From contig NZ_JAOWLE010000001.1 in the NCBI RefSeq assembly GCF_025751515.1, positions 372,001-436,000 on the forward strand: 64,000 nt of DNA, in the 5' to 3' direction. Every line of letters begins with the position of its first letter. Positions within the stretch are counted from its first letter, which is position 1. Below are positions 29,483 through 54,702 of this stretch, piece by piece. The translations under genes were made by a program, and so were the position numbers. Below the pieces are notes generated by a model. That model searched no databases. It was given only the letters and a program-made list of their open reading frames with translations, and had not been told where the DNA came from. The stretch comes from Actibacterium sp. XHP0104 (lineage in GTDB: Bacteria; Pseudomonadota; Alphaproteobacteria; Rhodobacterales; Rhodobacteraceae).

Positions 29483-30454
29483 TTAGCCCCAGTTCCAGAT
29501 TGCCGGGACGAACCTGAAGGCGTCGCCGTCGCGCATGACGTGACCCACGCCGGGGAAGGGGAAGTGATAGCCCAGCACCGCCATGCCGTCGGCGGCAGCC
29601 ATGTCCAGCAGGCGGTGGCGGGTTGCGGCGGCCATGGGGCCGTCCTGGTCGAAACCGCCATGCCAGTCGGGGCGTTCAAAGCTGGCATAGGCGTGGGTCA
29701 TCGCGTCGCCCAGCGCGATCAGCTGTTTGCCCTCGCTTTCGACCACGACCGACAGGTGGTTCAGCGTGTGGCCTGGCGTCGCGATCATGCGCACGCCCGG
29801 CACAACCTCGAACCCGTCCTCGGCGCGGGTCCAGTCGACGCCATCGGTGCCCAGCGCGTTGACCGCGCCGACCACGAATTGCTGCATCTCAAGCGGCACG
29901 GTATTGGCCAGCCCGTCCTGCATCCACCAGTCATACTCGGCCCCGCCGATGACATATTGCGCGTCGGGAAAGAGCGGCTCGTCGAAGTCGTCGCGGATGC
30001 CCCAGACATGATCGGGGTGGGCATGGGTGATCACCACATGGGTGATGCTGGCCGGGTCGATGCCGGCGGCATCGAGATTAGCCATCAAGCGCCCCGCGGT
30101 GGGCAGGAACCGGCTGCCAGAGCCCACGTCGATCAGCACCACGGCCTCGCCGGTGTCGATCACCAGGTGGTTGGTGTGGGAATAGTTGTTGTCGACCGAC
30201 AGCTGATGCGACTTGAGAAAGGCGATGACATCGTCTTGTGACGCGTTCGGGAAACTGCCGGCGGGCAGGTCGAGATAGCCGTCGGACACGACCGTCAGCC
30301 GGGTCGTGCCGATCGAAAAGCGGAAATAGGGCGCGTTGCCTGCCGCACCCGGCCCCCCGACATTGGCCAAAAGGGGTGCGGCAGGCAGTGCAAGCGCAGG
30401 GGCCGCCGCGGCCAGTTTCAACAGACGGCGACGGGTCGGGTCAAAATGGGGCAT
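29483..30454 (-). CDS. Tat-exported MBL-fold metallo-hydrolase
   Basis: The 323 residues begin with a twin-arginine signal (TRRRLLKLAAAAPALALPAA), so a folded, metal-loaded enzyme should reach the periplasm. The metallo-beta-lactamase fold has the dinuclear metal site: THAHPDH, PGHTLNH, the bridging Asp in GDAMTH and a late His (GYHFPFPG). The subclass resembles lactonase-like and SoxH-like hydrolases; substrate unknown. It lies 35 bases after the DUF2892 gene on the same strand, and an SqrR/BigR-like site before that gene suggests a link to reactive sulfur. Confidence 0.88.
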   Translation of the reverse strand: MPHFDPTRRRLLKLAAAAPALALPAAPLLANVGGPGAAGNAPYFRFSIGTTRLTVVSDGYLDLPAGSFPNASQDDVIAFLKSHQLSVDNNYSHTNHLVIDTGEAVVLIDVGSGSRFLPTAGRLMANLDAAGIDPASITHVVITHAHPDHVWGIRDDFDEPLFPDAQYVIGGAEYDWWMQDGLANTVPLEMQQFVVGAVNALGTDGVDWTRAEDGFEVVPGVRMIATPGHTLNHLSVVVESEGKQLIALGDAMTHAYASFERPDWHGGFDQDGPMAAATRHRLLDMAAADGMAVLGYHFPFPGVGHVMRDGDAFRFVPAIWNWG

Positions 30455-30489: not shown

Positions 30490-30693
30490 TTAGTTAAACG
30501 CGGTTCCGGGCTTTACGCCAAGCTTTTTGAAGATGTTGGCCGCGGGGCAGAAGCCGGTGATCGAGGCCTGGAACATGTTCACGCCGATGAATGCGGTGAA
30601 CAGGTGCCACAGGGGCGACACGAAATAGGCCAGTGCCACCGAGATCAGGATCATCACGCCGGCAAACATCATCACAGCACGGTCAAGGGTCAT
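30490..30693 (-). CDS. DUF2892 (YgaP-type) small membrane protein
   Basis: The 67 residues form two membrane helices flanking the family signature FTAFIGVNMFQASITGFCPA, with a C-terminal IFKKLGVKPG. In YgaP the same domain anchors a rhodanese; here it stands alone. I use the ATG at 30691-30693 because GGAG lies 6 bases upstream; an ATG at 30705 overlaps that site. It is first in a pair with the Tat-exported MBL hydrolase, and the ATTC-N8-GAAT box lies 68 bases upstream of its start. A second DUF2892 gene is at 58169. Confidence 0.9.
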   Translation of the reverse strand: MTLDRAVMMFAGVMILISVALAYFVSPLWHLFTAFIGVNMFQASITGFCPAANIFKKLGVKPGTAFN

Positions 30694-30760
30694 GGGATAC
30701 TCCATCAGCAGGCCACGGGGATCGGGCCTTTGGGCGCAATATGCCCGCTGGCGAAGATAA

Positions 30761-30776
30761 ATTCAAGTATGCGAAT
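30761..30776. promoter_or_regulatory. SqrR/BigR-like operator (ATTC-N8-GAAT) before the DUF2892-MBL pair
   Basis: ATTC (30761-30764), eight bases, GAAT (30773-30776). This matches exactly the inverted repeat reported for SqrR, the persulfide-sensing ArsR-family repressor of Rhodobacter capsulatus. Over 20 bases it is identical at 17 positions to the site at 54579, in the same orientation to its gene. It lies between the marR stop and the DUF2892 start. Confidence 0.65.
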
Positions 30777-30799: not shown

Positions 30800-31270
30800 T
30801 CAGGCGAGGGGCTGGCGCAGGGGCGCACGGCTTAGCTTGTTACCGGCCTCGGCGGCCTTGCGCATCAGTTGCAACAGGGTCTCTTGTTCCTCGGGGGTGA
30901 GGCCCGACAGAACCTCGCGTTGCAGCGACTGCACCACGACCTTGACCTGCTCGAACTCGTCCAGGCCGATCTCGGTCAGATGCAGCACCTTCGCCCGGCG
31001 GTCGCGTTCCGAGATCTCGCGCCGCACCAGGCCCTTTTGTTCCAACCGGTCGATCACGCCGCCGATGGTGACGCGGTCATAGGCGATCAGCCCGGACAGG
31101 GTGGCCTGGTCGATGCCGGGATTGCTGGCGATGGCCGAGATGGCGGCGAATTGCACCGGCGTCAGGGCGTGACCCGCGCGGGCCACGCGGTCGGCAAAGA
31201 CCGAGACGGAAATCTGGTGCAGCCGACGGATGTAATGCCCGGGCATGTTATAGATTTCAGGTGCTTCCAT
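30800..31270 (-). CDS. MarR family transcriptional regulator
   Basis: This 156-residue winged-helix protein has the MarR layout: dimerising N-terminal helices, the recognition region (GIDQATLSGLIAYDRVTIGGVIDRLEQKGLVRREISERDRRAKVL is spread over about 55-100, with the wing at ERDRRA) and a C-terminal dimer helix. The motif D-R-x-T at the recognition helix is typical. The ATG at 31268-31270 has a G-rich site at about 7 bases; an ATG at 31282 would put that site inside the gene. Its ligand is unknown; the intergenic inverted repeats upstream (31284-31394) may be its own operators. Confidence 0.9.
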   Translation of the reverse strand: MEAPEIYNMPGHYIRRLHQISVSVFADRVARAGHALTPVQFAAISAIASNPGIDQATLSGLIAYDRVTIGGVIDRLEQKGLVRREISERDRRAKVLHLTEIGLDEFEQVKVVVQSLQREVLSGLTPEEQETLLQLMRKAAEAGNKLSRAPLRQPLA

Positions 31271-31283
31271 GATGACCCCCATT

Positions 31284-53272: not shown

Positions 53273-54166
53273 ATGCAGGATTGGGACGGGTTGCGATACG
53301 TTCTGGCGGTCACGCGTGAGGGCGGGCTAAGTGGCGCCGCGCGGGCCTTGGGTGTGACACATGCGACGGTGTCGCGGCAGGTGGCGCGGGCCGAGCAGGC
53401 GGCGGGCACGCCGTTCTTTACCCGGCTGGCGACCGGGCTGGTGCCGACCGAGGCCGGGGCCGAGGCCGCCGCCCGTGCCGCCCGGATCGAGGCCGAGATA
53501 TTGGCGCTGGATCTGGCGCTGGCGGCGCGGGACGACCGCGCCACGGGTGATCTGACCGTGACGGTGCCGCCTTTGCTGATGCTGTCGGGGCTGGCCGAGG
53601 ACCTGACCGAGTTTCGGCAGATGTTCCCCGGCATCTCGCTGTCTGTTCTGGGGGGGAATGCGCCGCTGAACCTGCATCGGCGCGAGGCCGACATCGCCAT
53701 CCGCGTTGCCCGAGACCCGACCGATAGCCTCTGGGGCAGGGTGATCGCCCGTCAGCGCGCGGGCTGGTTCGCCACCCCGGGTTTTCTGCGCGATCACAGC
53801 GCGGCCATGGCGTCGGGCGGGGCGGTGCCGGTGGTATCGTTCACGGCCTATTCCGACCCGCTGCCGCCCAGCCTGGTGCAGCACCTGCCGGGCGCCGAGG
53901 TCGTGGTGGTCAGCGATGACATGGTCGGCGCCGCGGCGTTGGCGCGGGCGGGTATGGGGCTGGTTCGGATGCCCTGGTTTCTGGGCGAGGGCGACCCCGA
54001 CCTGGTTCCGGTGCCCGGCGTGCCGCTGATCGACTACATGCCGATCTGGGTGCTGACGCATCCCGACCTGCGCCGCCTGCCGCGGGTGGTTGAATTCATG
54101 CGTTTCGTCGCGGGGCGGTTTGCCGGGCGGGCCGATCGCTATTACGGGCCGCCCGAGGTGCCTTAG
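53273..54166 (+). CDS. LysR family transcriptional regulator
   Basis: A 297-residue LysR protein: N-terminal winged helix (WDGLRYVLAVTREGGLSGAARALGV is about 4-28; THATVSRQVARAEQAAGTPF the recognition part) and a C-terminal effector-binding domain (about 92-290). It resembles the single-gene regulators that control a divergent neighbour, here DUF1330. The inducer is unknown. The last bases of its stop overlap the convergent rhodanese gene's stop (54163-54166). Confidence 0.92.
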   Translation: MQDWDGLRYVLAVTREGGLSGAARALGVTHATVSRQVARAEQAAGTPFFTRLATGLVPTEAGAEAAARAARIEAEILALDLALAARDDRATGDLTVTVPPLLMLSGLAEDLTEFRQMFPGISLSVLGGNAPLNLHRREADIAIRVARDPTDSLWGRVIARQRAGWFATPGFLRDHSAAMASGGAVPVVSFTAYSDPLPPSLVQHLPGAEVVVVSDDMVGAAALARAGMGLVRMPWFLGEGDPDLVPVPGVPLIDYMPIWVLTHPDLRRLPRVVEFMRFVAGRFAGRADRYYGPPEVP

Positions 54167-54525
54167 GCGTGACTAAGCGCGCCGCCGGCCACCTGCCAGT
54201 GGTGCAGCCCGCCGATGTTGTAGACCTGCTCATAGCCCATCTGCATCATCATCTGCGCCGCCATCTGCGACCGCCCGCCCGACGCGCAATAGAGCGCGAT
54301 GGGCCGGTCCAGGGTCAGCTCGGGCAGGTGCTCGGGGCTGCGCGGATCGACCTTCATCTGCAACACCGGCAGCGGAATATGCAGCGCGCCTGCCGCATGG
54401 CCCGTGGCCCGCAGCTCGGCCGCGTCGCGCACGTCGATCAGGGTCATCTCGCCGGCGGCGACTTTCTGCACCGCCTCGGCCGCATCCAGAACGGCGACGC
54501 GCGGGCCAGAGAACATCGAAAACAT
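54163..54525 (-). CDS. Single-domain rhodanese (sulfurtransferase)
   Basis: The 120 residues form one rhodanese domain with LIDVRDAAELRATGHAAGAL and the active-site loop YCASGGRSQMAA, whose Cys carries the persulfide. It has no signal peptide and is likely cytosolic. Such proteins pass sulfane sulfur between partners during persulfide detoxification or biosynthesis. An ATTC-N8-GAAT box lies 54 bases before its start, like that of the DUF2892-MBL pair. Its end overlaps the lysR-type gene by 4 bases. Confidence 0.92.
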   Translation of the reverse strand: MFSMFSGPRVAVLDAAEAVQKVAAGEMTLIDVRDAAELRATGHAAGALHIPLPVLQMKVDPRSPEHLPELTLDRPIALYCASGGRSQMAAQMMMQMGYEQVYNIGGLHHWQVAGGALSHA

Positions 54526-54578
54526 GGTCGGTTCCTTGTCTGGTTGGTCCCGCGGGGGCGGGGGTGGCGGTGATATAT

Positions 54579-54594
54579 ATTCATGTTGGCGAAT
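54579..54594. promoter_or_regulatory. SqrR/BigR-like operator (ATTC-N8-GAAT) before the rhodanese gene
   Basis: ATTC (54579-54582), eight bases, GAAT (54591-54594), with an AT-rich flank (GATATAT) on the gene side that could hold a -10 element. It shares 17 of 20 bases with the site at 30761. Rhodaneses are typical targets of persulfide-sensing ArsR-family repressors (SqrR/BigR), which fits the gene it precedes. Confidence 0.68.
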
Positions 54595-54687
54595 GTGAAG
54601 AGTCGCGCAAGGCTTGTCTCACGATTTCGGGAAGAAATAGCGGGATGGCGCGCGAAATGGCAGTAGAAAAGGGGCGCAGGCGGAAAA

Positions 54688-54702
54688 GTTCTTGCAATGT
54701 TC
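54688..54702. promoter_or_regulatory. LexA (SOS) box of uvrA
   Basis: GTTC-TTGCAAT-GTTC is an exact match to the alphaproteobacterial LexA site GTTC-N7-GTTC. It lies 68 bases upstream of the uvrA start. uvrA is an SOS gene in this group, so LexA repression here is very likely. Confidence 0.88.

Follow-up and report, generated by a model that had tools for sequence, protein, structure and literature searches.

A candidate SqrR-type operator before a lone rhodanese gene of Actibacterium sp. XHP0104 and its conservation upstream of rhodanese orthologues

The closest described regulatory system is that of the repressor SqrR in R. capsulatus. The site deduced for this protein (RcSqrR) is given in passages of PMC9774250 as ATTC-N8-GAAT; the same passages describe YgaV, an SqrR homologue whose footprint over the ygaVP promoter contains a similar site. 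According to sections of PMC9995734, sqr and the rhodanese gene rcc01557 are under SqrR control in R. capsulatus. The trxC gene is also controlled by SqrR, with a 22.4-fold effect of sulfide and a 21.6-fold effect of an sqrR mutation reported in excerpts of PMC10044876; the trxC primer listed there, when reverse-complemented, holds ATTCCGCAACGCGAAT just before the ATG. Parts of PMC12423496 name RND pumps among the target genes of this ArsR repressor subfamily. In E. coli, excerpts of the literature describe YgaP as a single protein that joins a rhodanese domain and a transmembrane domain.

The window analysed here, a stretch of 64,000 nucleotides of Actibacterium sp. XHP0104, contains a candidate SqrR-type operator ATTC-N8-GAAT at 54579..54594 on the minus strand (letters ATTCATGTTGGCGAAT; ATTCGCCAACATGAAT in the orientation of the gene). 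The site is separated by 53 bp from the start codon of a lone single-domain rhodanese gene (54163..54525, minus strand; PF00581, E = 8e-16); a CASGGR loop, where rhodaneses normally carry the catalytic cysteine, can be read from the protein. A second candidate operator of the same type is located at 30761..30776, also on the minus strand (letters ATTCAAGTATGCGAAT; gene orientation ATTCGCATACTTGAAT), before a gene encoding a YgaP-like transmembrane (DUF2892) protein (30490..30705, minus strand; PF11127, E = 6.5e-13). The sole PDB match of this protein at E ≤ 1 is YgaP (2mpn, E = 7.8e-7). The 54579 site looks like a further case of a regulatory system that is already described: with a probability of about 0.92, a SqrR/BigR-type repressor of the ArsR family would bind it as its operator and control the rhodanese gene in response to polysulfide.

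The preliminary description had pointed to a near-identical site 24 kb away in the same orientation to its gene, and this was confirmed. The two sites agree at 17 of 20 bases and, outside the ATTC/GAAT core, at 9 of 12, both lying in the same orientation before a minus-strand gene; the naive chance of at least 9 of 12 non-core agreements is about 8e-4, uncorrected for the picking of the pair. Among 17 genomes picked for having both, the non-core likeness of rhodanese and DUF2892 sites averages 5.9 of 12 within a genome and 5.2 between genomes. These are the only exact ATTC-N8-GAAT matches in the window, a count not above chance (two seen, 0.70 expected; 15 of 100 shuffles gave at least two), and one-mismatch versions are rarer in the window than expected (8 vs 17). 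The pair is significant because the core is conserved before orthologous genes, not because of counts. Tandem repeats were looked for near the 54579 site and none were found.

Conservation was followed in 117 rhodanese loci (L027-L056, L057-L060, L071-L093 and L124-L183), drawn from the matches listed; the first group consists of the 30 matches of its set that came with a locus, three of one set of 100, the weakest (G098, G221 and G101), were left out, as were 10 out-of-family loci (L061-L070), which have no site. By the test that the preliminary description had set itself, conservation of the extended site before the orthologous rhodanese genes of close relatives, the core holds: an exact copy lies at most 250 bp upstream in 53 of the 101 loci with tblastn scores of at least 85 bits. 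It is missing from the other 48 and from all 16 weaker loci (below 85 bits). When all inverted repeats with four-base half-sites were ranked (256 half-sites × spacings of 0–14, or 3840 patterns), ATTC-N8-GAAT came first, being present in 52 of 100 distinct rhodanese upstream regions. The runners-up were GC-rich self-complementary words found in 39 and fewer of the 100, and the ATTC half-site at other spacings occurred in at most two. The inner eight bases of the rhodanese-family sites are variable except for a T-rich middle; therefore, it is the palindrome that carries the signal rather than an overall likeness of the upstream regions. With a position matrix trained on 52 rhodanese sites, 63 of 97 rhodanese loci have a score of at least 18, with at least one such copy in 63 of 82 genomes. 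The core is kept in about half of the rhodanese orthologue loci examined, and the candidate operator is well supported by conservation.

The site also lies among promoter-like elements. A −35-like hexamer TTCACA (54594..54599, minus strand) overlaps the outer base of the operator, and a −10-like hexamer TATATC (54572..54577, minus strand) follows with a spacer of 16. Throughout the rhodanese family, the operator is flanked by a −35 resembling TTnACA and a −10 resembling TATA, and the promoter scored better toward the gene at 46 of 52 distinct sites, in reverse at three, with three ties. An overlap of operator and promoter is supported for the rhodanese family only. Best-pair promoter direction was not significant for the DUF2892 family (11 vs 7) or the HlyD family (7 vs 6) and leaned away from the gene for trxC (3 vs 7). 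With a fixed −35 frame, all four families lean toward the gene (mean matches of 3.50 vs 1.44, 3.27 vs 1.45, 3.13 vs 1.60 and 2.00 vs 1.27). A simple consensus scan called no sigma-70 promoter at 54579 or 30761.

The same palindrome is first of the 3840 patterns upstream of three further gene families, each counted with the copy from the genome under study included. The exact core was found in 22 of 30 DUF2892 upstream regions of 250 bp (the best 30 of 41 matches), in 15 of 30 regions of 400 bp before the gene for HlyD, the adaptor in an RND pair (30 of 39 matches), and in 11 of 30 regions of 400 bp before trxC, encoding thioredoxin-2 (the 30 best matches from a longer list). Some DUF2892 and HlyD loci overlap, a few having a common operon and site; among 29 relatives, eight have an HlyD relative within 1.5 kb of the DUF2892 gene and two have a trxC relative there. 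In one of these two (G066), the DUF2892 locus (L209) is without a site of its own, and the matrix scores 20.4 for a match at the neighbouring trxC gene (L293). The suggestion that one regulator serves targets of a sulfur or thiol type is borne out by this conservation of the core before rhodanese, DUF2892, HlyD and trxC orthologues.

The Actibacterium genome contains 15 exact cores and two copies of the reversed pattern; as a control the latter is weak, since the rarity of that word could have a different cause. Four of them have high matrix scores: 29.5 at 30761, 27.9 at 54579, 27.6 before trxC and 26.4 before the RND pair; only the 54579 site had been used in training the matrix. The DUF2892 gene behind the 30761 site and, elsewhere in the genome, trxC and the RND efflux pair are probably under the same repressor. 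The matrix gave no match of at least 18 in the flanks of 60 loci, which together span 108 kb. The remaining 11 exact cores score 12.9 in one case and below 8 in ten, and with matrix scores of no more than 12.9 they were treated as chance occurrences. YeeE-type genes had been among the expected targets, but the exact core between a YeeE-type gene and a gene judged by eye to be msrA-like scores below 8, against 26–30 at the four good sites, and was taken as chance. The core scoring 12.9 (L008; L186 5380, G000:C14:29379) lies between a DUF692-type gene and thrS, both identified by eye, and may also be due to chance.

Two further observations concern candidate members of this gene set. A one-mismatch site (L202 1503-1518; G000:C16:47180-47195) has a matrix score of 23.5 and is located 40 bp before a gene for a DsrE-like protein with a signal-peptide-like start (PF02635, E = 2e-4; 21.8 bits, with a cut-off of 22.7); on these features, the DsrE-like gene is a possible fifth target. 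Downstream of the DUF2892 gene, on the same strand and after a gap of 35 bp, lies a gene for a metallo-beta-lactamase-fold protein (29483..30454, minus strand; PF00753) with a twin-arginine-like leader seen by eye. It is possibly co-transcribed after DUF2892 as an operon; no relative of it was found within 1.5 kb of DUF2892 in any of 29 relatives. The top NCBIfam match of the protein is the AidB lactonase model, at 133 bits with a cut-off of 360.

The part of the preliminary description that did not hold is the extended consensus ATTCANGTNNGCGAATGTGA, which had been put forward as a search pattern for the regulon. Exact matches occur in one of 248 family genomes, and these are the two window sites themselves; in the same genome, the next match has three mismatches. 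With one mismatch allowed, four other family genomes have one match each, none of them within 1.5 kb of rhodanese, DUF2892, HlyD or trxC relatives. The right half common to the two window sites, GCGAATGTGA, is present in three of 97 distinct core sites taken from before the four gene families, two of which are the window's own. The GTGA extension is mostly the complement of the −35 hexamer, TTCACA at the 54579 site. One one-mismatch match of the extended pattern (L300 1505; G250:C15:138976-138995), away from the four gene families, has a matrix score of 27.1 and may mark a further target.

A suitable repressor is encoded in the same genome. PF01022 has 11 matches there at E ≤ 0.01, five of them over the cut-off, and one of the ArsR proteins has as its best PDB match 6o8k (E = 5e-39), presumably R. 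capsulatus SqrR, with both sensor cysteines aligned. Its gene adjoins a sox cluster (L184 5862-11557; G000:C14) that comprises genes for a YeeE-type transporter and a DsbD_TM protein, soxYZ and soxA. The protein scores 92.4 bits against the NCBIfam BigR equivalog, below the cut-off of 155; by that model, the predicted repressor is a relative of BigR, not BigR itself. A homologue (E ≤ 1e-18) is present in 202 of 248 family genomes, and only seven of the 82 genomes compared are without a strong homologue (E ≤ 1e-30). Sites scoring at least 18 were found in five of nine loci without strong SqrR and in 58 of 88 with it (p = 0.72, with few SqrR-less genomes and a matrix trained on many of the same sites); the exact core was found in two of nine and 48 of 88, respectively. 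Absence of the repressor did not predict absence of the site in the few genomes that allow this comparison. In 17 genomes with strong SqrR, no site scoring at least 18 lies before any rhodanese copy examined.

The location of the repressor gene allows another reading, in which the acting repressor is better named SoxR, a sox-linked ArsR protein, and the signal at the sites is sulfane sulfur that comes from thiosulfate. This reading overlaps with the SqrR/BigR-type one, the subfamily and mechanism being shared and the name and signal source being different; it is judged tenable, though the less probable way of naming the protein and its signal. It draws on the proximity of the gene to soxYZ/soxA and the YeeE-type transporter, and on H. 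denitrificans, whose SoxR and sHdrR are close relatives of SqrR and bind shared promoters; the comparison for SoxR is given in passages of PMC10451225. However, the sox promoters of the Actibacterium genome have only degenerate matrix matches (13.3 and 11.8). A tree of 30 family copies, weakly resolved with three of 29 inner branches well supported, mixes sox-linked copies (those with sox/YeeE neighbours within 1.5 kb) and other copies, and the 6o8k row clusters with three copies, two of them sox-linked. As the two kinds are intermingled, the distinction between SqrR and SoxR may be empty here.

Regulators encoded next to the two sites are far weaker candidates. A MarR gene (30800-31282) lies just upstream of DUF2892 and a LysR gene (53273-54166) just downstream of the rhodanese gene, and passages of PMC11211675 indicate that sulfane sulfur sensing is possible for MarR proteins. 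Binding of both sites by either protein is nevertheless very unlikely: a MarR relative is found within 1.5 kb of DUF2892 in none of 29 relatives and a LysR relative near rhodanese in two of 40, while the sites persist.

It is just as improbable that the 54579 site serves the divergent uvrA gene, even though 36 of the 41 rhodanese loci checked have uvrA in their flank. Before uvrA, at 54688..54702 on the plus strand, there is a GTTC-N7-GTTC box, which we take to be the alphaproteobacterial form of the LexA box; uvrA therefore has a candidate operator of its own. This is the window's only plus-strand match of the pattern, and the box is absent from the 54579 site. Moreover, four of 36 loci with the site lack a uvrA gene in the flank, the promoter at the site is directed toward the rhodanese gene and the same core is found before DUF2892, trxC and HlyD. 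A chance palindrome can be practically discounted: random sequence of 64 kb could well hold two exact cores, but core and spacing are conserved before orthologues in four gene families.

The SqrR/BigR-type reading rests on the site and the conservation of its core before orthologues, on the overlap with the promoter among the rhodanese loci and on the presence of a repressor gene with both cysteines; the recognition site, the sensing chemistry and the choice of rhodanese and trxC as targets are taken from the R. capsulatus literature. We infer from sequence comparison both binding and induction in this organism, with the sox-linked ArsR protein as the putative acting repressor. In the proposed mechanism, the repressor would bind ATTC-N8-GAAT between the −35 and −10 elements of the rhodanese promoter and block transcription. 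Sulfide would raise cellular polysulfide and persulfide, and polysulfide would bridge the two conserved cysteines of the repressor, taking it off the DNA. With the operator free of repressor, rhodanese could be made.

In many genomes of the family, a single polysulfide-repressor motif joins genes for a rhodanese, thioredoxin-2, an RND pump and a membrane protein of the DUF2892 type; in this way, two proteins of unclear substrate, the YgaP-type membrane protein and the RND pair, are linked to the handling of reactive sulfur, and the position matrix can be used for finding further targets. A more speculative proposal, considered improbable as a whole, is that the soluble rhodanese represents one half of a split YgaP and the YgaP-like membrane protein the other. 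Made together under one polysulfide repressor, they would assemble into a membrane sulfurtransferase passing sulfane sulfur to the co-regulated RND pump, which would export it, and thioredoxin-2 would act as the off-switch.

Compared with the described systems, the 54579 site has a core and spacing identical to those of the R. capsulatus SqrR operator. The likeness of the regulons is at the level of gene kinds, rhodanese and trxC also bearing the core here; the repressor gene, in a genome of 2.69 Mb, differs in being situated by sox genes. BigR of Xylella and Agrobacterium and SoxR/sHdrR of Hyphomicrobium have the ArsR subfamily and two sensor cysteines in common with the Actibacterium repressor, but their target operons differ from those found here; no operator sequences for them were found in the passages searched. 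The window rhodanese is not specially close to that of YgaP, no YgaP-named PDB chain being matched at E ≤ 1e-6. As compared with E. coli ygaVP, the rhodanese and transmembrane domains united in YgaP correspond here to two genes 24 kb apart, each with a candidate operator.
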